From Syntrophomonadaceae bacterium (lineage in GTDB: Bacteria; Bacillota; Syntrophomonadia; Syntrophomonadales; Syntrophomonadaceae): a DNA stretch of 49,995 nt. Location: NCBI GenBank assembly GCA_012522955.1, contig JAAYJK010000068.1, positions 1 to 49,995 of the forward strand, in the 5' to 3' direction. This document shows positions 1-12,556 of the stretch, piece after piece. The notes under the pieces are model-generated. The model saw nothing but the letters and a program-made list of their open reading frames with translations. It was not told the DNA's origin and ran no database searches. Made by a program: the position numbers and the translations under genes. Positions within the stretch are counted from its first letter, which is position 1; every line of letters begins with the position of its first letter.

Positions 1-2817
1 ACCATTGTTGCCAATGGAGTAGTCCCTACCGACTGGACTCTGCAGCTCTCCGGGGCTCAGGATGAGACCGTTACCAAGGCTTATTTCGAGCAAGGCTTGG
101 CCTGCCCTTCATCAGGACATCAGGTAACCTGGACCGATGATAAGGGAACCCCCGAGGATACCAGCGATGATGAAGTCTGGGGCGGAGTACCCTTATGGCT
201 CTTGGTGGCCATGGTGGATGATGACCCGGATATTGGTGATAAACACATTAATTTCAACGATGAACTGGCCGCCGCAGGCTATGAAGTAAAAGTAATAGCC
301 GGTGATACGTGGTCAACGGTACTTGACAGTGCTGATATCGCCGGCAGTGACGCATATATTGTTGCCAATACCCTGAACGGAGACCCCCTGCCCCTTAAGA
401 CCGATGGCGGTAAAGACTGCTGGCCCCTTTATTTAAAAGGCTCGGCTATCTCGGGGGGACAGCAGGTAGGCAATATAGTCCGCATCGAGCTGTCTGGTCT
501 GCCTGAACCACCTGCGGGATGGACCCTGGATCTGATAGGGGAAATTGGCGATACCATCACACAGCAGGAATTTGAAGAAGCCTTGGCCTGCACCGGTTCC
601 GGACATTGTCAGGAATGGACTGATAATGAAGGCAAAGTTTGGTCAGGTGTGCCTCTGTGGGTGCTTCTGGGTGCGATTGATGACATTGAATCTGGCAGCC
701 ATTGGACCTTTGATGATACCCTGGCTGCCAATTACACCGTAAAGGTAACTAATGGCGATGGTGATTACTCCCAGACTTTCGCCGGTTCAGATCTAGCCAA
801 CAGCAACGATTATATCGTGGCTAATATATACGATGGGGCACCGCTGGACGAGGGTTCAGCTCCGCTGCGTCTGGTAGGTGACGGTGTTACTAAAGATGAT
901 GGCTCAGGCTCACTCGGAGGGTTAGCGGTTGGTAACATCGCCCGGATAGAAATCCTTGAACTGCAGACTCCTCCCGCAGCCGATGGCAGTTGGAACCTGG
1001 TATTGGACGGCAAGATAAGTGATGTCATTTCCCAGGCTGAATTCGAAGCCGGGCTGGGCTGTCCCAACTCAGGGCACCTGGTAGAGTGGACTGATGGAGA
1101 TGGCAATGAATGGTCGGGTATACCCCTCTGGTATTTAGCCGGTTGGGTGGACGACCGGCAGCCCCACGCTTATGACTTTAATCAGGCTGTAGCCGGTTAC
1201 AAGGTCGTGGTGAAGGCCTCAGATAACTATAGTGTTGATTTTGACAGTGCGGATATCAATCAGAGCAGTGACTATATCATTGCCAACCAATGTAATGGAA
1301 GTGCACTTGATGGTTCCTGGCCCCTACGCCTGGTAGGTGACGGTGTTGCCAATGAAGGAGCCCTAACCGGTAAAAGCGTAGGAAAAGTAGCGGAAATCAA
1401 GCTCACCTCCTTTGAGAGCGGAAGCGGGGGAGACATTCCTCAGGTCCGCATAGTCAAGTATGATGAAGATAATACCACCATTTTGGATGAAATCACCGTC
1501 GACTATCTATGGATGCAGAATGAAAGCGGACTTGACGTAATTGGTGACGGCACCACGGTATACAAATATGAAGGAATCACCAACAACGCAGCTGATATAT
1601 GGGATGCTGCTGAGACCTATCCGGGCGGGTTCAAAATTGCCAATGCGATAATGGGTACCCGGATTAAGGATCTGGTTGAACTAGTAGGCGGCATGGGAGC
1701 TGGAACTGACATAGTATTTAAAGCCAAAGACGGTTGGGAAACCAAGCTGCCCTATTCCTCCATATATACTGATCCTTCAGTGCAGGCTCGCCAGGGCGAT
1801 GCCATATTGGCCTGGTATGCTGATGGAGAATATGTCCCCGATTATAAGGATGGAATGCGTCTATTCTTTACTCCTGAGGACCAAGTCTATGGTCAATGGG
1901 ATATGCATGAGACCTTACCAGAGGCTTACTGGCACTACTATTATGGTGATGTCATGTATCCTTCCTGTGCGGGACTGTCTCCCAAGTATATTACCGAGAT
2001 CAGTGTATACTCGGTACCTGAGAGTGATTGGACCCTGAAACTGGAAGGGCAGGATATCGGTGGTTTGGTTAAGGACATAAGCAAAACCTATTTTGAATCG
2101 GCTCTTACCTGTACCATGGGTGCCAACCACAAAGCAAGCTACACTGATTCTGAAAACCAGACCTGGGGAGGCATGCCCCTGTGGTTACTGGTAGGATTCG
2201 TCGATGATGAAGACCAGCATTCGGACAATGCATTTAATGAGAGTCTGGCTCAGGCTGGGTATCAGGTGGTTCTTACCGCTGATGACGGGTATTCAGTAAC
2301 CATTGATAGTACAGAAATCGACCGCAACAATGACTACATTGTCGCCAATACGCTGAATGGACTTAATATATCAAATGATGACGATAACTGGCCCCTGCGA
2401 CTTGTGGGACCGGCTGTCAGTGGACAATTATCCATTGGCCAAATAGCAAGTATTAAGCTGCTTGCCAAAGACAACGGTAATCCGGTCTACACAGTATCGC
2501 CGGTAAGTGATGATGCTTATATTAACGGGGCTACTACAGATGGAATAAATACTATGACGGTAAAAACCGGTATATCTGGATTTAAGTATTTTACCATCAA
2601 CATTACTCCAGTAACTCCTCATGCAGGAAAGGAAACCGTGGTCTTTACCCATCTGCGAAACGGTGTTCAGCTAGGTATCAATGCTACTCGGGCTGATTTT
2701 GACACAGTGACCAGCGCTCAGGCAGGTTTCAATGTTAAGGCTGGAGATGTGATAAAAGCCTATATCGTAGATGAACTGACCAATGATTTAACCTTTAATC
2801 CCATAGTTTTGCAATAA
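1..2817 (+). CDS. Surface protein of repeated molybdopterin-oxidoreductase-like domains (5' end missing)
   Basis: The frame is open from the first base, so the true start lies upstream; 938 codons are visible. The protein is built of repeats. Four clear copies (about 40-500, 520-960, 985-1420 and 2020-2460) share the order WTLxLxG, a C-x(2-4)-GH motif, WxGxPLW, a VDD-like acidic pair, GYxVxV, YIVAN and a WPLRLVG-like strand. A divergent unit lies at about 1440-2010 and a separate beta-rich domain at the C-terminus. The pattern resembles the sulfite-oxidase-type oxidoreductase fold (PF00174 family). The Cys falls roughly where that family has its molybdenum-ligating Cys, but whether cofactor is bound is unknown. 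The composition, rich in Asp, Gly and Thr, suits an exported protein. No membrane anchor or SLH domain is seen before the stop. Neighbouring genes encode related surface proteins. Confidence 0.75.
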   Translation, partial: TIVANGVVPTDWTLQLSGAQDETVTKAYFEQGLACPSSGHQVTWTDDKGTPEDTSDDEVWGGVPLWLLVAMVDDDPDIGDKHINFNDELAAAGYEVKVIAGDTWSTVLDSADIAGSDAYIVANTLNGDPLPLKTDGGKDCWPLYLKGSAISGGQQVGNIVRIELSGLPEPPAGWTLDLIGEIGDTITQQEFEEALACTGSGHCQEWTDNEGKVWSGVPLWVLLGAIDDIESGSHWTFDDTLAANYTVKVTNGDGDYSQTFAGSDLANSNDYIVANIYDGAPLDEGSAPLRLVGDGVTKDDGSGSLGGLAVGNIARIEILELQTPPAADGSWNLVLDGKISDVISQAEFEAGLGCPNSGHLVEWTDGDGNEWSGIPLWYLAGWVDDRQPHAYDFNQAVAGYKVVVKASDNYSVDFDSADINQSSDYIIANQCNGSALDGSWPLRLVGDGVANEGALTGKSVGKVAEIKLTSFESGSGGDIPQVRIVKYDEDNTTILDEITVDYLWMQNESGLDVIGDGTTVYKYEGITNNAADIWDAAETYPGGFKIANAIMGTRIKDLVELVGGMGAGTDIVFKAKDGWETKLPYSSIYTDPSVQARQGDAILAWYADGEYVPDYKDGMRLFFTPEDQVYGQWDMHETLPEAYWHYYYGDVMYPSCAGLSPKYITEISVYSVPESDWTLKLEGQDIGGLVKDISKTYFESALTCTMGANHKASYTDSENQTWGGMPLWLLVGFVDDEDQHSDNAFNESLAQAGYQVVLTADDGYSVTIDSTEIDRNNDYIVANTLNGLNISNDDDNWPLRLVGPAVSGQLSIGQIASIKLLAKDNGNPVYTVSPVSDDAYINGATTDGINTMTVKTGISGFKYFTINITPVTPHAGKETVVFTHLRNGVQLGINATRADFDTVTSAQAGFNVKAGDVIKAYIVDELTNDLTFNPIVLQ

Positions 2818-2822
2818 GCTAA

Positions 2823-3071
2823 ATTGGATTATTAATCGGGCTGGATGGGAAATCTTCTCCCATCCCTTCCGATTATCTCCATCCAGCTTATTGGCAGGAA
2901 AAAATAATATTCAAAGGTAAACCCAGTTTGCAGGTTAAATCGATTGCTTATATCCCTGGACAGCGGGCCACAGGTGACAGCTATGTCGCTGTGGCTATTG
3001 CTGCTCATTGGTACTATTGCATTTATTGTTGCCTAGCCAATGTAATACGAAGGAAAAGGAGGCTATTCTAA
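2823..3071 (+). pseudogene. Possible remnant of a C-terminal membrane anchor
   Basis: This gap is open in one frame for about 82 codons but has no start codon. Near its end it encodes TGDSYVAVAIAA, and the frame finishes with RRKRR just before a TAA that overlaps the next ATG (TAATG). Moving to another frame at about 3006 gives IGTIAFIVA, so one indel would restore a hydrophobic segment followed by a basic tail. That layout is typical of cell-wall-sorting or membrane anchors in Firmicute surface proteins. A hairpin (GCCACAG/CTGTGGC, 2967-2995) lies inside it. It may be a relic of a deleted surface gene, or chance. Confidence 0.3.
2834..2874 (+). terminator. Hairpin after the repeat protein gene
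   Basis: An outer 6-bp stem (AATCGG/CCGATT) and an inner 8-bp stem (GGATGGGA/TCCCATCC) are separated by a 3x3 internal loop and close a 7-nt loop. It begins 17 nt after the stop codon. There is no clear T-run after it, so it may be an attenuator or RNA-stability element rather than a full intrinsic terminator. Confidence 0.45.
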
Positions 3072-6000
3072 TGACAAGGGGATGGAAATCGGAAAGGATA
3101 AAATATATTGCCCTGATTAGCATTTTGTGTTTTTGCTTAGGGGCCGGGCTTATACCTTGGGGGAATTATTCCGGCCCTGCTCTGGCTTCCCAGCTGGGAC
3201 CTGAGCAAATCATACTGAGTTGGACCGATGATCCTAGCAGTACTCAGACTATTACCTGGCTGATGTCTGATAACATAGCCGCACAACTGCAATATATGCC
3301 GGCTGCAGCTTTCAGTGGCGGTTTTGCTGCTGCCTCGGTAGTAGAAGTGCAGGGAAGGGCATTCGATAGTAATAATTATCGTTATCAAGCCAATATTTCC
3401 GGTTTAACTCCAGATACTCACTATGTTTATCGGGTGGGCAGTGATGGGGCCTGGAGCGATACCTTGTCTTTTAGAACGGCTGCGGATACCAACGAATTCA
3501 CTTTCATGTATTTGGGAGATATACAGGAAGGATACGCTGATTGGGAAAATTTGCTAGATTCTATTAACAAGAGCCATCCTCAAATCAAATTTTCTCTTGT
3601 CGGAGGGGATTTATCCAACAATAGCACTGATGAAAATGAATGGGGACAGTTCCTGGATGCAGCTTCCCCTTATTTTTCTCAAATTCCTTTCATGCCCACT
3701 TTGGGCAATCATGACGGCCTTATGTACCTGAACTTTTTCGCATTGCCGGCCAATGGTCCTGAGGGACTAAAACAGGAATTCTATTCTTTTGACTATGGAA
3801 ATGCTCATTTTGTAGTTTTAAACAGTGGCAACAACACCAATGAAGCAGCCAAACAGTGGCTGCAGGCAGACCTGCAGAGCAGCACCAAGACCTGGAAGTT
3901 TGCCATGTTCCATCATCCTGCCTATCCCGCCCTTGAGGACAATAAGACGGTTGATGAATCCATATGTGAAAACTGGGTTCCGATTCTGGAAGCAAACGGG
4001 GTAGATATGGTGTTTGTGGGCCATCAGCACCAGTATATGAGAACCTATCCCATATACCAAGGACAGATACAGGTCGATTCGGATAGCTACGGAATTGTAT
4101 ATGTGATGGGTAATGCGGGAACCAAAGTTTATGCCCCTGGCGAGGATTTCCCTTACATTGCTAGAAAAGAAGCGGGCAGTAATTACCAGCTGATAGACAT
4201 CGACGGCGATAGTATGTCCATGACTTCAATCAAGGCAAGTGGGGAACTGATTGAGACATACACCATAGATAAAAGCCTGGGAGAAATATCCATTAGCGTA
4301 AGCGGGGATGGGGTAAGCAATCCAAGTATCTTTAGTGAAGCTGATTTGTTAGCCATGGAACAAGTTCAAGCCCAATACAGTACAATCAACACCTGGCCCA
4401 GTAAAAAAATGTATGTAGCCAGTGGAGTCAGACTTGCTGATCTGTTGGAACAAGCAGGAATTACTGATGAAGCCAGGATTATCAAGGTGAAGAGCCGAGA
4501 TGGATACATTATGACCTTCACGCTTAAAGAACTGCTTACAGATACTCGCTGCTTTTATCCAGGATTAAAGGAAAACCATGAGCATTTTGGCTATATAAAT
4601 GGATCAAGTGCTGAGGCCTTGCCGGTACCAACCATTCTAGCCCTACAAAGCGCTGAAAGCACTGATTTTGCACATATGACTGATATTGAGGCCCCTTTAC
4701 TGGTTATGGGACAACGTTGGGTAAGTGAGCAGACCAACCAGGTCTTTGCAAAATATGTTAATGCTATTGAAGTGTCTACAGTCCAACCGGATAAATGGGA
4801 GAATCCAAGCTTTACCCCCACCGGGGGAGCGGTAGCCGTTGGAACCCAGGTCGAATTGAGCACTTTAGATATGGATGGGGATAATATTTATTACACCATT
4901 GATGGCAGTGATCCTGGCTATCAAAGTAATATATATAATTGGATTAAAAAACGCTGGTGGACTTCACGGCCAGATGAACTGGCAGTTATCAACCATGCCA
5001 TAGAAATCAAGAACAATATGACTATTAAAGCGGTAGCCATTGGATTTGGCAAGCTGGACAGCGATATAGTGGCCTTTGATTATCAGGTGCCACAACCGCC
5101 GGGATTAACTGCCGACAGCAGTGAAGGTGAAGTAGGGCAGAGTATAGACATTAGCTTTGTTGATGATCCGGATTGGCGGATTTCCATTAGCGATATTCTG
5201 GTCAATGAGCAATCGATCAGCGGAAAATATACGGTGGAAGCAGGAATTATCAAGATCGATGCCCAGGTATTCACCAGGGCTGGAGTTTATGAGATTAGAG
5301 TTTTGGCTCCTGGATATGCCCAGGCCAGTATTAGCCAGACCATAACCGCCCAAGTAGTACTCCAGACTCCGGCTATTGATCAGGAGTTTATCCGGGGACA
5401 GCAGCTATACATACAGGGAACAGCCCTGGGCCTATTAAACCTTAGTCTAAAAATAGTGGATCCTGAAGGCGTAGTTATTTACGGTCCCAGTCCATTAACA
5501 GTATTAGATGGAATCTTCAATAGCAGTTTTAACCTGAGTTCCACTGCCCGCACCGGCACTTATACCATGGTATTGGACTCGGATAGTTTGTTGGCTCCTA
5601 TCAGCACTAGTTTTAAGGTTAAAACCAGCAGTGGGGGCGGCCCCCTCCCTCCGGTGGAGGATATCATTCTGACTATAAGCGGGGATGGAGTTAGTGGTAC
5701 CAAAACATTTACCCTAAGTCAGCTGGAAAAAATGAATCAGTACCAGGAGGTTTATAGTGTGATCAATACCTGGCCCACTAAAAAATGGTGTGTGGGACAG
5801 GGCGTGAAAATTAGCACTTTGCTGGATCTGGCTGGAATAAAATCCAGCGCCCGTCTAATAAAGATTACCTCAGAAGATGGGTACACTACCACTCTAACTC
5901 TTGACGAACTATTGCATGATAACCGTTATTGCTTCCCCGGGTTCAAGGAGGGAGGCGGTGATGCTGATGGTCATATTCCTGGTTCTCCGGCGGGAAAGCG

Positions 6001-7420
6001 GCCGGTTGAGCCTATGATTGCTTTGATAAGTGCTGAGGGTACCGACAATTCTTCATATATGAATGACTTAAATTCCCCTTTATTTATGATGGGTCAGCGG
6101 GCGGTTACCGAACAAGTTGGAAATTTATTTGTAAAACGGGTAAGTGAAATTCAAGTCTTAAGTACTTCTCCATCTACCTGGGACAGTCCTGAGGCTGATC
6201 CAGGCAGTGGCGAGGTGGAAGCAGGCACCATGGTAAGATTAAGCAATAAGAACATGGATGACGATAAGATCTATTATACAACTGATGGCAGCACTCCCAC
6301 CCTGGACAGTCCCATGTATAACTGGATAGCCAGTCGCTGGTGGGGTTCCCGGGATGATGAACTGGACAGCATTAACCATCCTATAGAGATTAATAAGGAT
6401 ACCACCATCAAAGCCTTAACCATTGGCCCTGGAAAGAAAGACAGCAAGGTAGTTACCTTTAACTATAAGGTAAAGCAAGCCCCTAACAATACGGCTGGAA
6501 AAATAATATCCAGTCGGGATAGCACCATAAGTCTGGGCCGTGAAGCCAAGTTGGAAATCCCAGCTAATGCCTTGGCCCAGAGCGGTGAGGTGGTAGTCAC
6601 TATAAGCAAGGTGGATTTGCCTCTTGCGGTGCCCAAGGGAGTTAGATTGCTGAGCAGTGTTTTTGAATTAAAGGTGGATGGAAAAAACAGCTATAGGTTT
6701 GCTGATAAGGTAAGCTTGAACTTGAGTTTTGATCCGGCAGAGCTTAATGAGGGTGATACTCCCTGCATTTATTATTTTGATGAGGCTTTAGATCAATGGA
6801 TAAATCTGGGCGGAATAGTAAGCGGCTCTACCATTACGGTGCAGATAGACCATGTTGCCAAATTTACGATTATGGCCCGTGACAATACCCCGGGAGCCAG
6901 CCTGAGTGATATTATAGGTCACTGGGCTCAGGAAAATATTCAGCACTTGCTGGGCACCAAGGTCATTGGGGGTTATCCGGATGGCAGCTTTAAACCCGAT
7001 AAGGCCATCAGCCGAGCTGAATTCGTCACTATCCTGGTGAAGGTCTTCCCCATGGATAGTCAGGAGGGGCAAGCCTTCATGGATACCGCAGATCACTGGG
7101 CGAGAGAATACATTGCCACTGCCGTAGGCAACGGCGTAGTCAGTGGTTATAATGAAAACAGCTTTGGTCCCGATGACCTGCTCACTCGGGAACAGATGGC
7201 GGTAATGATCTATAATGCAAGTCAAATCTCGGGGCTGACCGATGAGATGCAGTTTACCGATAAATACCAGATATCCATTTGGGCTAAAGAAGCTCTGGCT
7301 GCTTTGGTAGGGCATGGAATAATTAATGGATACCCCGACAACAGTATTAAGCCTCAAGGTAAGGCCAGTCGAGCTGAAGCGGTAACTGTTATCGTAAATA
7401 CCTTAAAGCTGACGGAATAA
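3071..7420 (+). CDS. SLH-anchored metallophosphoesterase with two oxidoreductase-like/chitobiase-like cassettes
   Basis: The protein has 1449 residues. The ATG at 3071 follows AAGGAGG, and the signal peptide ends near ALA-S. Domains in order are: a fibronectin-like N-terminal domain of purple acid phosphatases; a calcineurin-type phosphoesterase with GDIQ, GGDL, GNHDG, HHP and GHQH metal-site motifs; a first cassette (about 4290-5085) of a molybdopterin-oxidoreductase-like domain plus a chitobiase C-terminal-like domain (YYTIDGSDP); a segment like the Shr hemoglobin-interacting domain (formerly DUF1533; about 5090-5350); a beta domain; a second cassette (about 5665-6475); a ZU5-like region; and three SLH domains. 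It should be exported and held on the wall by SLH contacts, hydrolysing phosphate esters outside the cell. The substrate is unknown. The cassette domains lack the Cys seen in the preceding protein, so they probably bind ligands or partners rather than catalyse. Confidence 0.85.
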   Translation: MTRGWKSERIKYIALISILCFCLGAGLIPWGNYSGPALASQLGPEQIILSWTDDPSSTQTITWLMSDNIAAQLQYMPAAAFSGGFAAASVVEVQGRAFDSNNYRYQANISGLTPDTHYVYRVGSDGAWSDTLSFRTAADTNEFTFMYLGDIQEGYADWENLLDSINKSHPQIKFSLVGGDLSNNSTDENEWGQFLDAASPYFSQIPFMPTLGNHDGLMYLNFFALPANGPEGLKQEFYSFDYGNAHFVVLNSGNNTNEAAKQWLQADLQSSTKTWKFAMFHHPAYPALEDNKTVDESICENWVPILEANGVDMVFVGHQHQYMRTYPIYQGQIQVDSDSYGIVYVMGNAGTKVYAPGEDFPYIARKEAGSNYQLIDIDGDSMSMTSIKASGELIETYTIDKSLGEISISVSGDGVSNPSIFSEADLLAMEQVQAQYSTINTWPSKKMYVASGVRLADLLEQAGITDEARIIKVKSRDGYIMTFTLKELLTDTRCFYPGLKENHEHFGYINGSSAEALPVPTILALQSAESTDFAHMTDIEAPLLVMGQRWVSEQTNQVFAKYVNAIEVSTVQPDKWENPSFTPTGGAVAVGTQVELSTLDMDGDNIYYTIDGSDPGYQSNIYNWIKKRWWTSRPDELAVINHAIEIKNNMTIKAVAIGFGKLDSDIVAFDYQVPQPPGLTADSSEGEVGQSIDISFVDDPDWRISISDILVNEQSISGKYTVEAGIIKIDAQVFTRAGVYEIRVLAPGYAQASISQTITAQVVLQTPAIDQEFIRGQQLYIQGTALGLLNLSLKIVDPEGVVIYGPSPLTVLDGIFNSSFNLSSTARTGTYTMVLDSDSLLAPISTSFKVKTSSGGGPLPPVEDIILTISGDGVSGTKTFTLSQLEKMNQYQEVYSVINTWPTKKWCVGQGVKISTLLDLAGIKSSARLIKITSEDGYTTTLTLDELLHDNRYCFPGFKEGGGDADGHIPGSPAGKRPVEPMIALISAEGTDNSSYMNDLNSPLFMMGQRAVTEQVGNLFVKRVSEIQVLSTSPSTWDSPEADPGSGEVEAGTMVRLSNKNMDDDKIYYTTDGSTPTLDSPMYNWIASRWWGSRDDELDSINHPIEINKDTTIKALTIGPGKKDSKVVTFNYKVKQAPNNTAGKIISSRDSTISLGREAKLEIPANALAQSGEVVVTISKVDLPLAVPKGVRLLSSVFELKVDGKNSYRFADKVSLNLSFDPAELNEGDTPCIYYFDEALDQWINLGGIVSGSTITVQIDHVAKFTIMARDNTPGASLSDIIGHWAQENIQHLLGTKVIGGYPDGSFKPDKAISRAEFVTILVKVFPMDSQEGQAFMDTADHWAREYIATAVGNGVVSGYNENSFGPDDLLTREQMAVMIYNASQISGLTDEMQFTDKYQISIWAKEALAALVGHGIINGYPDNSIKPQGKASRAEAVTVIVNTLKLTE

Positions 7421-7497
7421 TTGCCATCTTGCTTAAAAATATCAAGGGGTGAAGATTATTTTCAAAACCAGCAACAAAGAAGAAGCAGGGGGATGAG

Positions 7498-9117
7498 GTG
7501 AGAGTATCAGTGATAATAGCTAGAGGCAATAATGGTCGGGGTAAAAGATGGATATTGATACTAGTCTGGCTACTGAGCCTTACAGTATTTAATTTGATTA
7601 TCGCAGCTTCCAGCCGGGCTGATACCCCGTATACTTTGGAAATTATTGGTGATGGGGTAGCCAGTCCTATGACTTTTACTTTGGATCAGCTACAGGATAT
7701 AGAAGCATACCAGCGAGTTTACAGTACTATCAACACCTGGCCTAGTAAGAGATTTTATATAGGCCAGGGGGTTAGATTAAAACAAGTACTTGATTTAGCT
7801 GGAATTCAGGAAGAGGCCAAACTGATTAAGTTTTATTCTTATGATGGCTATGAAGTAAGCTTAACTGTTAAGGAATTGCTCAATGATAAACGTTACCATT
7901 TTCCTCATTTAATGGACAATAGCACTACCGATGGCAGTATTGCCGGGTCTTCTACCGATAAGCAAGAGGTGGATGCTATTTTGGCCTGGGAGAGTGCGGA
8001 GAGCAGTACAGATCCGCAGGAAATGAATGATATGAATGCCTTGTTGCTGATTTTTGGCCAACGGGCGGTAACTGAGCAAACCAATACCTTATTTTTGAAA
8101 CATGTGAACAGGATTGAGGTGCTGATGGCTGAACCGGAAAAGTGGGATAAACCCCGGGCTAGTATTAATAGTACCGAGGTGGCTATCGGCAGCCTGCTGG
8201 AATTGAGTAGCAAGGGTAATGACACTGATAAAGTTTACTACACCACCGATGGCAGTACTCCAACTATAGAAAGCCCCATATTTAATTGGAGTGCAAAACG
8301 CTGGTGGAGTCAAAGACCGGATAATTTGGACAGTATTAATAAACCAATCCCAATTAATCAGGACATAATTATCAAAGCCATTGTTATTGGTCCAGGCAAA
8401 GAAGATAGTGAGGTGATGACCTTTTCCTATAAGGTGGGAGTCCAGGATTCACCTGGACAAGATTTACCTCCAGGAGTGCCTACTGCCATCTCCCTGGACC
8501 GGGAGCACATCGATCTTAAAGTGGGGGGCAGTTTCGAATTGTATGCCAACGTAGGTCCCGATAATGCTATAGATAAAAGCATAATCTGGACATCCAGCGA
8601 TACTCGGGTGGCTACTGTTGACAAGCACGGTCTGGTTACCATGGTAGGTCCGGGTACAGCCACCATCACGGCCAAAACTCAAGCCGGGGGTCTGGAGGTT
8701 AGCTGTTCGGTCAGCAGCCAAGGGGAAAAAGCCCAGGTCCAGATTACCCAGGTCTCGGAGGATAATCCTCCCCCCGAAGAGGAAGTGGATAATTCACCAA
8801 GGGTAGCTCCAGAGGAGGTTCCCGCCCAGGAAAAACCGAGTCCGGATTTAAGTCAGGAACAACCACTACCAACCTCTAAAGGGGAAGTAGGTTCGGATCG
8901 CTTTCGCTATCTTGTAAAAAAGGTAGTGGCTGATGGTGATCAGGATTCTGCTGATCAAAGAGCAGACAACCAGGCAGCGGAATTTTCAGGCGACTATCTG
9001 CCCCTGGCTCTGGAGCAGAGAAGTTTACAGAGCCATACCTTACCTATATTTATAATTCTATTCTTTACAGGTGCATTAAAAGAGTATTGGCAATACAAGA
9101 AGGAGGCAATAAGGTGA
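7498..9117 (+). CDS. Membrane-anchored surface protein: oxidoreductase-like, chitobiase-like and BIG2 domains
   Basis: The protein has 539 residues and a GTG start behind GGGGGA. A signal segment (about residues 18-40) is followed by one copy of the shared cassette: an oxidoreductase-like domain with the INTWPSKR, DGYEVSLT and FGQRAVTEQTN signatures, then the chitobiase C-terminal-like domain (VYYTTDGSTPT, RWW). A bacterial Ig-like group 2 domain follows (about residues 320-405, WTSSD and GTATITA), then a Pro/Glu-rich linker and a C-terminal hydrophobic helix ending in KKEAIR. It is therefore probably tethered to the membrane with most of its mass outside. Its stop overlaps the start of the ExbB-like gene (GTGA), so the two are probably translationally coupled and may work together. 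No enzymatic motif is visible. Confidence 0.78.
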   Translation: MRVSVIIARGNNGRGKRWILILVWLLSLTVFNLIIAASSRADTPYTLEIIGDGVASPMTFTLDQLQDIEAYQRVYSTINTWPSKRFYIGQGVRLKQVLDLAGIQEEAKLIKFYSYDGYEVSLTVKELLNDKRYHFPHLMDNSTTDGSIAGSSTDKQEVDAILAWESAESSTDPQEMNDMNALLLIFGQRAVTEQTNTLFLKHVNRIEVLMAEPEKWDKPRASINSTEVAIGSLLELSSKGNDTDKVYYTTDGSTPTIESPIFNWSAKRWWSQRPDNLDSINKPIPINQDIIIKAIVIGPGKEDSEVMTFSYKVGVQDSPGQDLPPGVPTAISLDREHIDLKVGGSFELYANVGPDNAIDKSIIWTSSDTRVATVDKHGLVTMVGPGTATITAKTQAGGLEVSCSVSSQGEKAQVQITQVSEDNPPPEEEVDNSPRVAPEEVPAQEKPSPDLSQEQPLPTSKGEVGSDRFRYLVKKVVADGDQDSADQRADNQAAEFSGDYLPLALEQRSLQSHTLPIFIILFFTGALKEYWQYKKEAIR

Positions 9118-9767
9118 GTCTTTCTGTTTTAGCAGCTCTGGAAAACGCCATGCATGACATTTCGTCCGGCTTATTGGCACCTACCATAGCGGTATTATTA
9201 TTTTTTGTTGCTTTTGTAGTATTTGAAACCGGCAGTTTGGTAGTTGAGTACTTTAGCCAGAGGCGAAGGGCTAAGGTTAACATTCCTGCCTTGTTGGACA
9301 GTTTTAAGGGCCAGAAGGCGGAAGATATTGAAGCGAAAATTGAGCAAAGCCCATTGTTCAGACGCCAAAAAGCAGTTTTAGGTCAATTGATCAAACACCG
9401 AGATTTGACTGCTCTGTCCCATCAGGCATTGGCACGCAAGCTCTTGGCCAACGAGGAATTATATTATCTTAAAATAACCAATCGCACTGATTTAGTGGCT
9501 AGGCTAGGTCCCATGCTGGGATTGATGGCTACTTTAATTCCCCTGGGGCCGGGTCTGATTGCCATGGGGCAGGGGGATACCAAAACCTTGGCCGATGCCC
9601 TGCTTACAGCCTTTGATGCAACGGTTACCGGTTTGGCTACCGCTGGAGTGGCCTATGCCATTTCCAGACTGCGCAAGAGATGGTATGACGAATATTTGAG
9701 TTCCTTGGAGGCCTTGCTGGAAAGCTTATTGGAGGTGTTGCCCTGTGAACAGAGGATTGCGAAATAG
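9114..9767 (+). CDS. MotA/TolQ/ExbB-family proton channel
   Basis: The protein has 217 residues and starts at the GTG at 9114, behind AAGGAGG. The upstream TTG at 9087 in the same frame has no ribosome site. Three membrane segments are expected: an N-terminal one (LLAPTIAVLLFFVAFVVF), a cytoplasmic stretch, then two more in the conserved ExbB/TolQ core (ARLGPMLGLMATLIPLGPG and AFDATVTGLATAGVAYAI). The family forms pentameric inner-membrane channels that use proton flow to move a partner such as TonB, Tol or the flagellum. Here the partner is probably the DUF2149 protein, whose start lies inside this gene, and the overlapping upstream surface protein. No TonB gene is seen nearby. Confidence 0.85.
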   Translation: MSLSVLAALENAMHDISSGLLAPTIAVLLFFVAFVVFETGSLVVEYFSQRRRAKVNIPALLDSFKGQKAEDIEAKIEQSPLFRRQKAVLGQLIKHRDLTALSHQALARKLLANEELYYLKITNRTDLVARLGPMLGLMATLIPLGPGLIAMGQGDTKTLADALLTAFDATVTGLATAGVAYAISRLRKRWYDEYLSSLEALLESLLEVLPCEQRIAK

Positions 9768-10062
9768 AAGAAGATTTGGAAGCGATGACGAAGCCAATCC
9801 CCTGGAAGGGGCCATAAATATAGTGGATGCAATGTTGGTGTTTGCCTGTGGATTGATGCTGGCTCTGGTAATTCGCTGGGATGTGGACCTAAGTAAGGTA
9901 AACGATAATATAAACTTATCAAAGGGTCAGGAGATATCCCAGAATACTGATATAAGAGATGATTTGGTAGAGAGTAAGGATCAAGGAGATCTTTATGAAA
10001 AGCTGGGTACAGCTTATAAAGATCCGGCTACAGGCAAAGTTTTTATTCTTTCGGACGAATAA
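9745..10062 (+). CDS. DUF2149 protein, probable ExbD-like partner
   Basis: The protein has 105 residues. Its GTG start lies 23 bases before the end of the ExbB-like gene, so translation is probably coupled. There is a short basic N-terminus (NRRRFGSDDEANP), one membrane helix (about residues 26-44, NIVDAMLVFACGLMLALVI) and a polar C-terminal part ending in a YKDPATGKVFIL motif. The overall pattern fits DUF2149. The VDAMLVF stretch at the start of the helix resembles the IDVMLVLL stretch of ExbD/TolR, with Asp28 at the position of the proton-carrying Asp. That equivalence is my inference. It most likely completes a proton-driven motor with the preceding protein. Confidence 0.8.
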   Translation: MNRGLRNRRRFGSDDEANPLEGAINIVDAMLVFACGLMLALVIRWDVDLSKVNDNINLSKGQEISQNTDIRDDLVESKDQGDLYEKLGTAYKDPATGKVFILSDE

Positions 10063-10173
10063 AGTAAAAGTTATTCAGGACTTAAGCTTATTACAGTGAT
10101 ATGGAGAAAACTGAATTATTGGTGCATTATAAGTATTTGAATAATTGTTGTGTGGGAAAGGAGAGAATTACTA

Positions 10174-11652
10174 ATGCCAACCCTGAAAAATAAATGCTGG
10201 CGGAAATCCATGATATTAGTTATGGGCTTGTTGTTCCTGGCCAATTCCCTCAATATCCTCATGCCTGGGATGGCTGGGGCCGAGCCCTCGGAATCTTTAG
10301 AGATATTAGGAGATGGGATAAGCCAGCCCGCCTTATTTACACTGGAACAACTACAGGAGAAGGAACAGACTCAACAGGTCTACAGTGCCATTAACACCTG
10401 GCCTACCAAAAAATGGTATGTAGGAGAAGGGTTGAATCTTCGTTCCTTGCTGGATTCAGTGGGAATGAAAGAAGAAGCCAAGCTGATTCGTTTTTACTCC
10501 AATGATGGATATTCCATGACCCTTACGGTCAAAGAACTATTCGAAGATCAACGCTATTGTTTTCCCCATTTCATGGATAATAACGTTAGTGATGGAGGGG
10601 GGAATATTGTAGGTTCTCCCGACGAGGCAGAACCGGTGGAAGCTATTATAGCTCTCAAAAGTGTGGAGGGAAGTAATAATCCCAAATATATGAACGACCT
10701 CAATTCACTCTTGCTGATGATGGGTCAAAGAGCGGTTAGCGAACAAACCGGCAATCTGTTTGTAAAGTATTTATATAAGATTGAAGTACTTACAGAAGAA
10801 CCGGAGCAGTGGGATAAGCCCGATGCCAATCCCGAGCCTGGAGCAGTAGAGGCTGGAACTATGGTGGCACTAAGTAATGCTCATATGGATGATGATAAAA
10901 TCTATTATACCACTGACGGAAGTATTCCCACTATCAACAGTTCCATGTATAATTGGATTGCCCGGCGTTGGTGGTCAACTCGGGCCGATGTTCTAGGAGT
11001 ATACAATCATCCCATTGGTCCCCTTTATGAAGATACGGTAATCACAGCCATTACCATAGGACCGGGTAAGACAGACAGTGAGGTGGTAAGCTTCCATTAC
11101 ACGGTTTTACCTGCAGGTTACGAGGGAGATATTGTTTTAAATGACATAAACCAGCATTGGGCTGAAAACAAGATTCGGGAACTGGTCAAGGCTGGCGCTA
11201 TCGGAGGTTATCCGGACAATAGTTTTAAACCCAATAACACCATTACCCGGGCCGAATTTGCTACCATCCTGGTGAAGACTCTGGGCTTGGAAATAGGGAA
11301 GGGACAGGTTTTTAGTGATACTTCCGGACACTGGGCCCGGGACTACATAGCAGCAGCCAATCACCATAAAATAGTAGCAGGATATAGTGATAGGGAATTT
11401 GGCCCAGACCATTTCATTACCAGGGAGCAAATGGCGGTGATGATTACCAGAGCAGCCCAATTGGAAACGGTTAGTGCAACCACTAGCTTTGCCGACAATG
11501 ACAGTATATCAAGTTGGGCAGTTGAAGCCATATCCCTGTGTAGCGGTCAGGGAATTATGAAAGGATATCCAGACAACACCATTAATCCCCAGGGTTATGC
11601 TACCAGAGCGGAAGCGGCAACAGTAATAGTCAATGCCAACTTGGGGAGGTAA
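10174..11652 (+). CDS. SLH-domain surface protein with oxidoreductase-like/chitobiase-like cassette
   Basis: The protein has 492 residues. The ATG at 10174 follows AAAGGAGAG; the GTG at 10150 in frame has no such site. A signal peptide ends near MAGAEP. Next comes a single cassette: an oxidoreductase-like domain (INTWPTKKW, DGYSMTLT, MGQRAVSEQTGNLF) and a chitobiase C-terminal-like domain (IYYTTDGSIPT, RRWW, GPGKTDSEV). Three SLH domains fill the C-terminus (about 11130-11640). It should be secreted and bound non-covalently to the wall. It is close in sequence to the second cassette of the large phosphoesterase, which points to recent duplication. It lies 112 bases after the DUF2149 gene and 7 bases before the lipoprotein gene. 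Confidence 0.8.
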   Translation: MPTLKNKCWRKSMILVMGLLFLANSLNILMPGMAGAEPSESLEILGDGISQPALFTLEQLQEKEQTQQVYSAINTWPTKKWYVGEGLNLRSLLDSVGMKEEAKLIRFYSNDGYSMTLTVKELFEDQRYCFPHFMDNNVSDGGGNIVGSPDEAEPVEAIIALKSVEGSNNPKYMNDLNSLLLMMGQRAVSEQTGNLFVKYLYKIEVLTEEPEQWDKPDANPEPGAVEAGTMVALSNAHMDDDKIYYTTDGSIPTINSSMYNWIARRWWSTRADVLGVYNHPIGPLYEDTVITAITIGPGKTDSEVVSFHYTVLPAGYEGDIVLNDINQHWAENKIRELVKAGAIGGYPDNSFKPNNTITRAEFATILVKTLGLEIGKGQVFSDTSGHWARDYIAAANHHKIVAGYSDREFGPDHFITREQMAVMITRAAQLETVSATTSFADNDSISSWAVEAISLCSGQGIMKGYPDNTINPQGYATRAEAATVIVNANLGR

Positions 11653-11659
11653 GAAGACT

Positions 11660-12556
11660 ATGGATTCCATCAAGGACAGGCTTAGAAAGATAGAAATATT
11701 GGTGACGCTGCTTTTGCTGGGGGGCCTTATGGTTTTTTGCGGTTGCAGCCAGGAGAAGCATTTAAAGGGGGTACAACCGGAGTTTACCCCGGGCCATTTG
11801 ACTATTATGGGAAATGGAGTAGAAGTGGAAAAGATATTCTCCCTGGAGGAGCTAAAGAATAAAAAGGAAGCTCAGAGGAGTGAAGCTTATTCCATGCTCA
11901 ATGACTGGCCCAGCCCCAGGATTATTGTTGGCAAAGGTATCACAGTATCTGCTTTGTTGGAGGAGGCTGGAATTAAGCCTGAAGCTAAAGCTATTAAGGT
12001 ATGGGCTGCTGATGGATATAATACTACCCTTACCCGGGAACAACTATTTGAAAAACGTTATTATTATCCAGCTTTGCTTGAGGGTAGTGAGGAAGGGGCT
12101 AAGGAAGTTACCGCCATATTAGCCTGGGAATATGGAGAAGGCATCGATGATTTGAGCCAGACTCGTCCTGGCCCACTATGCCTGCTCTTGGGGCAGAAGG
12201 GATTGAAGAACACCATTGCTCCCGCCTGTGTGAAAGATGTGGTAACCCTGGAGGTAGTAAAAGAAGCACCGGGTTGTTGGGATGAAGTTCATGCTGATCC
12301 TTCGGCAGGCCAAGTAGAAGCGGGTACTGAGGTTTTTTTGCTTCATTCCCAACCGGATAAGGTAAAGATATACTATACTATAGACGGGAGTGTTCCAGAT
12401 GAGCGGAGTATATTATATAATCCTAGTACCAGCTATTTTCAACCAGAGCTGACCAAAGCTATAATTATTAATGAATCCCTGATCATCAAAACCATCGCGA
12501 TTGGTTTGGGCAAAGAGAATAGCCAGGTATCAAGCTTTGCTTACCAGGTGGAATAA
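11660..12556 (+). CDS. Lipoprotein with oxidoreductase-like/chitobiase-like cassette
   Basis: The protein has 298 residues. The ATG at 11660 follows GGGGAGG, which overlaps the end of the preceding gene. The N-terminus has a hydrophobic segment ending in MVFCGCSQ, which reads as a lipobox although the -3 position is not ideal. The mature part is one whole cassette: an oxidoreductase-like domain (ILAWEYGEG, LLLGQKG) followed by a shortened chitobiase-like domain (IYYTIDGSVPD). It is the most divergent copy and lacks the RWW motif of the others. As a lipid-anchored version of the wall-bound paralogs next door, it could pass a ligand or make contact between wall and membrane. That role is inferred only from the context. 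Confidence 0.75.
   Translation: MDSIKDRLRKIEILVTLLLLGGLMVFCGCSQEKHLKGVQPEFTPGHLTIMGNGVEVEKIFSLEELKNKKEAQRSEAYSMLNDWPSPRIIVGKGITVSALLEEAGIKPEAKAIKVWAADGYNTTLTREQLFEKRYYYPALLEGSEEGAKEVTAILAWEYGEGIDDLSQTRPGPLCLLLGQKGLKNTIAPACVKDVVTLEVVKEAPGCWDEVHADPSAGQVEAGTEVFLLHSQPDKVKIYYTIDGSVPDERSILYNPSTSYFQPELTKAIIINESLIIKTIAIGLGKENSQVSSFAYQVE

Follow-up and report, generated by a model that had tools for sequence, protein, structure and literature searches.

Why should an anaerobe carry the same oxidoreductase-like domain at several depths of its surface, beside genes that resemble a proton-driven membrane motor? The question is raised by seven consecutive forward-strand genes, all of them confirmed, that span positions 1–12556 of contig JAAYJK010000068.1 (assembly GCA_012522955.1) of a Syntrophomonadaceae bacterium. 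The stretch analysed, here termed the window, comprises 49,995 nucleotides of this contig from base 1; the contig (C17) is one of 137 in a host genome of 2.53 Mb, and its start truncates the front of the cluster, gene 1 having lost its 5' end. An earlier note on this DNA had read the genes as one surface machine, an interpretation that our analysis partly supports. The balance tips narrowly toward an acquisition system of monoderm anaerobes, regulated by the molybdenum cofactor (Moco) or tungsten cofactor (Tuco), in which a surface relay would be joined to a proton-driven motor. In relatives, genes of this kind are accompanied by riboswitches and paired importers; the set therefore probably serves to collect external cofactor, or else its metal or pterin.

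The recurring unit, the cassette, combines PF00174 (Oxidored_molyb) with PF13287/PF13290. Pfam, pairwise BLAST and alignment bore out the count of five copies in four of the seven genes given in the earlier note: two in gene 2 (3071–7420; cassette A at 4295–5089, cassette B at 5669–6472) and one each in gene 3 (7498–9117; cassette at 7636–8436), gene 6 (10174–11652; 10297–11106) and gene 7 (11660–12556; 11798–12550). The copies share 34–53% identity (E 1e-37 to 1e-108); in genes 6 and 7, PF00174 taken alone is under the Pfam cut-off. The motifs listed in that note were found again in the alignment, except that gene 7 has LNDWP for INTWP and lacks RWW. A fifth gene with repeats of a related fold was likewise recovered: gene 1 (1–2817; PF00174, E 1.6e-15) encodes the C-terminal portion of a large surface protein, in which four sulfite-oxidase-type domains, termed REP, lie at about 25–522, 508–984, 979–1440 and 2014–2499, each matching a model made from these repeats at E 6e-71 or better.

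The cassettes are attached in three ways, fewer than the four proposed before, and the claim of a different anchor for each copy was wrong in detail, for three SLH repeats terminate both gene 2 (6905–7381) and gene 6 (11140–11619). Gene 3 has a signal peptide, its cassette, a Big_2 domain and a C-terminal membrane helix, which is moderately hydrophobic and under the threshold of the hydropathy scan, with a tail motif that matches orthologues. Gene 6 also starts with a signal peptide, and gene 7 is a lipoprotein with an FCGC lipobox. Gene 2 is a composite of phosphoesterase, cassette A, Shr-like_HID, an MG2-like domain, cassette B and the SLH repeats, of which the phosphoesterase and Shr-like_HID had gone unnoticed. 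The phosphoesterase (3500–4036) is purple-acid-phosphatase-like, and similar phosphoesterases are stand-alone genes in other loci; possibly it removes phosphate from a pterin or another ligand. Pfam found no NEAT domain in the window, and matches to NCBIfam 'NEAT' proteins fall on or beside the SLH repeats. From their ribosome-binding sites, the likely true starts of genes 2, 4 and 7 are 3071, 9114 (GTG) and 11660; the open frames of genes 2 and 7 extend upstream to 3008 and 11633.

Structure prediction places both kinds of domain in the molybdopterin-domain fold of the sulfite oxidase family. An AlphaFold2 model of the cassette, built on 46 aligned cassettes, reached a pLDDT of 96.4, so that the shared fold on which the earlier reading depended was predicted with confidence. 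Residues 1–165 of this model superpose on the molybdopterin domain of SoxCD (Z 14.4, 1.8 Å over 123 residues) and on PruR with neopterin (7rkb; Z 13.3), and residues 168–267 resemble immunoglobulin (Ig)/chitobiase-type domains. The REP model (pLDDT 85) is likewise close to sulfite oxidase (Z 15.3) and PruR (Z 13.2). Profile alignment of cassette against REP gives a weak match over 32 columns, and the common fold therefore rests on the structure models.

The putative ligand sites differ between the two. The cassettes keep Asn33 of INTWP without exception (46/46) and conserve no Cys; nor is a Cys outside the lipobox conserved in the other related lipid- and membrane-anchored proteins. Since the conserved Mo-ligating Cys is absent, we rejected sulfite oxidase enzymes as an identity for the cassettes. 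In REP repeats, Cys33 and His39 are invariant (16/16), and Cys33 aligns, with a weak profile score, on the Mo-ligand Cys of E. coli MsrP. PruR, which also lacks the Mo-ligating Cys, binds pterins (PMC13259868).

Genes 4 and 5 are the candidate motor. Gene 4 (9114–9767) is a MotA/TolQ/ExbB-family membrane protein with the ExbB-type helix region; it scores over the Pfam cut-off (PF01618, E 2e-7), aligns to TolQ (E 1e-4) and ExbB (E 1e-3), and keeps more than 50 invariant positions across 13 sequences. Gene 5 (9745–10062) is a DUF2149 protein (PF09919, E 2e-9) with one membrane helix, in which Asp28 is invariant in 13 sequences and stands in the register of the ExbD helix Asp (IVDAMLVFACGLMLAL / FIDVMLVLLIIFMVAA; hhalign E 0.03, a weak score). 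The Pfam ExbD model did not match gene 5, and a PDB sequence search with DUF2149 gave one match, at chance level. Genes 3 and 4 overlap in GTGA at 9114–9117, where the stop of one meets the start of the other, and genes 4 and 5 overlap by 23 bases (9745–9767). A MotA/TolQ/ExbB and DUF2149 pair is also part of the Bacteroidota hmu operons (PMC10434189); in these heme systems it is reported to draw on the membrane gradient to power heme uptake (PMC12583661).

Two loci show the pair in other company. In Desulfovirgula thermocuniculi (L169, 5005–6465) a CobN/Mg-chelatase-like protein with a gene 3-type membrane tail occupies the gene 3 position, directly before the pair, as if the motor had exchangeable clients. 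In locus L030 (genome G047, 10364–12401) the pair lies downstream of a cobalamin riboswitch, with a membrane-protein gene in between. The hmu motor and the L030 switch brought cobalamin or heme into consideration as ligand; this candidate was dropped, because Rfam found no cobalamin riboswitch in 29 further motor loci, among which the Moco class dominated.

Comparative genomic evidence ties the motor to the cassettes. Thirteen of 61 relatives carry DUF2149, the host genome having a second copy on contig C39, and across the phylum it occurs in 34 of 398 genomes; the close relatives are Syntrophomonadaceae metagenome-assembled genomes (MAGs) and Syntrophomonas. A scan of named genomes yielded 80 loci, with Syntrophomonas, Pelotomaculum, Desulfoscipio, Petroclostridium, Dethiobacter and gut Mogibacterium among the hosts. 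A cassette gene lies immediately upstream of gene 4 in 66 of the 76 cases having an upstream frame, gene 5 is downstream in 64, and the order of helix-anchored cassette, ExbB-like protein and DUF2149 is kept across Firmicutes, flanked in close relatives by SLH and lipid cassettes. The genes thus stay together in many relatives, and the overlapping conserved triple supports one system, as had been proposed; a physical complex of its products would be a further, hypothetical step.

Riboswitches connect these clusters to the cofactor. Rfam placed RF01055 riboswitches before cassette clusters in four loci (L035, L036, L038 and L039), and counted 11 in the host genome, 14 in S. wolfei and 19 in genome G044. 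A search model built from 30 riboswitches and run on the 80 loci gave 42 matches in 25 loci, every one on the cluster strand; the density in the host genome predicts about 5 on both strands of the 1.26 Mb, with the caveat that tandem copies are non-independent. Downstream genes are present for 40 of the riboswitches, and for 37 of these a cassette, a related domain or the substrate-binding (S) component of an energy-coupling factor (ECF) transporter is among the first two. By length, 38 of the 42 are P3-less, the class tied to the tungsten cofactor by Regulski et al. 2008 (PMC2408646). In that study two P3-less S. wolfei RNAs before 'sulphite oxidase' genes were an exception (PMC2408646); these genes are presumably cassette and REP genes.

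The missing front of the cluster in the host probably lies on another of its contigs. Gene 1 corresponds to residues 1585–2503 of a 2503-residue orthologue (74% identity), and a gene truncated at the end of contig C37, preceded there by a P3-less riboswitch and an SLH gene, to residues 1–351 of the same protein (68%). As the two align to opposite parts of one orthologue, they are probably the ends of a single gene split between C37 and C17. Neither C37 nor C52 was found to overlap directly with the beginning of the window.

Two other riboswitch arrangements were seen in the loci. In L043 (G020) a c-di-GMP-I riboswitch lies at 1252–1336 on the minus strand, between DUF2149 and the next cassette gene, and in L125 (G003, 6509–8237) three tandem P3-bearing Moco riboswitches precede a run of SLH-cassette genes, with two more, divergently, before a transporter operon.

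Importers are the recurrent partners of the clusters. On host contig C39 (L031), cassette, ExbB and DUF2149 run into a PF09819-type S-component (assigned via close homologues in L032, which were tested with Pfam), two ATPases and a T-component truncated by the contig end. Host contig C57 (L078) carries, in order, a riboswitch, a cassette gene, related domains, FMN_bind, DUF4405, ApbE, an S-component, a membrane-anchored single sulfite-oxidase-type domain, two ATPases, a T-component and MobB. In S. wolfei (L036/L118) cassettes, motor, flavin genes and an ECF set lie within one stretch, and L037 encodes a fusion of the S-component with one sulfite-oxidase-type domain. S-components were found in 15 of the 80 loci and ECF transporters in Syntrophomonas and Pelotomaculum; in gut clostridial loci their place is taken by FecCD, an ATPase and a Peripla_BP_2 protein. 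The window itself has no ECF subunit (S, A, A' or T). FMN_bind, ApbE and iron-sulfur or cytochrome-type membrane genes stand beside cassettes in L036 (592–4893) and L078 (2547–4899), and a reductive step at the surface is possible from such neighbours.

Acquisition of a cofactor or metal is suggested by the riboswitches, by the ECF and FecCD importers and by the pterin-binding proteins related in fold, and from them, together with the anchors, we infer a ligand, a direction of transfer, a relay and a role for the motor as follows. Sulfite-oxidase-fold domains held at S-layer, lipid and membrane-helix depth would capture a compound of Mo or W with a pterin; the likeliest candidate is cofactor or molybdopterin released from dead cells, and an alternative is its pterin or metal. 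The captured compound would be handed inward along the cassettes. Judging from the gene overlaps and the resemblance to ExbB/ExbD, genes 4 and 5, coupled to gene 3, may use the proton motive force for transfer or release. Passage through the membrane would fall to the ECF transporter with its PF09819 S-component, as on C39 and C57, or to FecCD with its binding protein, as linkage and fusion suggest. Expression would be controlled by the cofactor level through the riboswitch.

The genes for cofactor synthesis bear on this proposal from both sides. Eight of the host genomes lack MoaC, and in seven of these MoaA was also undetected. In six genomes (those of loci L183, L185, L191, L196, L197 and L199) MoaA, MoaC, MoeA and MoaE were all undetected, yet each has 1–4 matches to tungsten-dependent AOR enzymes, which occur in 12 gut loci; this apparent loss of Moa/Moe genes with retention of AOR favours import of the cofactor, short of proof. 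MoaE (PF02391) is uninformative because it was undetected even in the nearly complete host genome (rated 99.85% complete), despite the presence of MoaA and MoaC there, and likewise in 10 of 11 other genomes.

Several observations weigh against import of the cofactor. The host genome has MoaC, as do 22 of the 30 genomes tested from other loci, so that import would be supplementary in most hosts. The six apparent auxotrophs are MAGs, in which gaps can account for part of the pattern; G441, the one among them that was read almost in full, is clearly an incomplete genome, since it has only 14 of 20 tRNA types and lacks several marker genes, so that gene absence is weak there. RF01055 also precedes genes resembling those for formate dehydrogenase, Moco synthesis and tungstate transport (names given by sequence resemblance, partly Pfam-tested). 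When terminator competition was used to judge the direction of the switch, terminators were compatible with the bound aptamer almost throughout, whether the genes were for cassettes, transport or formate dehydrogenase. No riboswitch was found in the window, whose cluster front is cut, and the link to C37 is by homology, with the middle of the gene missing. Finally, the site of PruR was judged too small for Moco (PMC13259868).

A rival version of the scheme keeps relay and motor but has molybdate or tungstate, free or complexed, as the ligand in place of the pterin cofactor; we regard this as rather unlikely. In its favour, most hosts retain MoaC, TupABC-like transporters (named by resemblance and gene order) are under the same riboswitch class in these genomes, and FecCD-type importers such as MolBC are able to carry molybdate or tungstate. 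Against it, the fold is a pterin-holding one, a soluble oxyanion would hardly repay the cost of five cassettes and a motor, a dedicated TupABC-like system is present with its own riboswitch (L084), and six AOR-bearing genomes have no detected Moa/Moe genes.

A surface redox machine, in which sulfite-oxidase-type proteins loaded with Moco or Tuco serve extracellular electron transfer or surface oxidation, seems improbable. It would account for the FMN_bind, ApbE, Fer4_5 and DUF4405 genes beside several clusters, for the invariant REP Cys at the Mo-ligand position and for the two S. wolfei genes termed putative sulfite oxidases by Regulski 2008, but the 46 cassettes and the other anchored proteins have no conserved Cys outside the lipobox, flavin genes are missing from many loci, including the window, and motor and ECF/FecCD importers would be left unexplained. 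Surface pterin sensing of the PruR type, with the motor serving another purpose, is very improbable: PruR is among the closest folds lacking the Cys, but no conserved signalling partner stood out in the loci, where importers recur instead. That the genes are unrelated S-layer adhesins sharing a domain beside a MotA/ExbB gene is barely credible, for SLH proteins are common in the host genome (53 SLH repeats in total) but the conserved overlapping triple and the strand bias of the riboswitches contradict it.

If the cofactor-acquisition reading is right, it would have consequences beyond this genome. To our knowledge, the general view is that every cell makes its own Mo/W cofactor. In the open-access literature we found no description of the cluster, of an ECF/S-layer system under a Moco riboswitch or of a route for molybdopterin import; the parts are of known kinds, and we know of no account of their combination or of the proposed ligand. 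With confidence somewhat short of even, we suggest that this is a first import system for a molybdopterin-type (W/Mo) cofactor and a Ton-like, proton-driven surface uptake machine in cells without an outer membrane, that an enzyme fold has been turned into a surface relay, and that DUF2149/ExbB is a general motor with exchangeable cofactor clients, CobN for tetrapyrroles and cassettes for Mo/W pterins. The cluster is a concrete and testable candidate for cofactor import, and it is widespread among tungsten-enzyme-dependent anaerobes of syntrophic and gut communities. Such a function would account for the 2008 exception of P3-less S. wolfei riboswitches before sulfite-oxidase-looking genes (PMC2408646), suggest a role for the uncharacterised DUF2149/ExbB pair outside heme operons, and illustrate a possible use of a Ton-like motor in a monoderm.

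Each part of the proposed system has a counterpart among known ones. The molybdopterin-domain fold is shared with the sulfite oxidase/MsrP family, in which full sulfite oxidases also pair it with an Ig-like domain, but the cassettes lack the Mo-ligating Cys. The Isd/NEAT heme relay of Gram-positive bacteria, as generally known, similarly repeats one binding domain at wall, lipid and membrane level and ends in an importer, whereas here fold and ligand are others, anchoring is by SLH and not by sortase, and a proton-driven motor is added. PruR shares the secreted sulfite-oxidase fold without Mo-ligating Cys and binds pterins, but is a single-domain periplasmic signalling partner of DcpA in Proteobacteria, with neither SLH repeats nor an importer. 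TonB-ExbB-ExbD and Tol-Pal resemble the motor, given the alignment of gene 4 to TolQ/ExbB and the register of the gene 5 helix Asp, but the cell type here is without an outer membrane, and no TonB/TolA-like protein or outer-membrane receptor was found among the scanned window genes or the examined flanking genes. The hmuYRSTUV heme operon of Bacteroidota has a membrane pair of the gene 4 and 5 type in gradient-powered import of a metal cofactor (PMC10434189, PMC12583661), though there the pair serves a TonB-dependent receptor and HmuS, a CobN-like dechelatase, in place of cassette proteins in a monoderm; a CobN-like HmuS beside the motor is absent from the window by Pfam and present in L169. 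ECF transporters with a PF09819 (YkoE-type) S-component, finally, likewise consist of the S, two ATPase and T subunits encoded with cassettes in relatives and on the host contigs C39 and C57, but here the S-component stands beside or is fused to a sulfite-oxidase-type domain, under a Moco/Tuco riboswitch.

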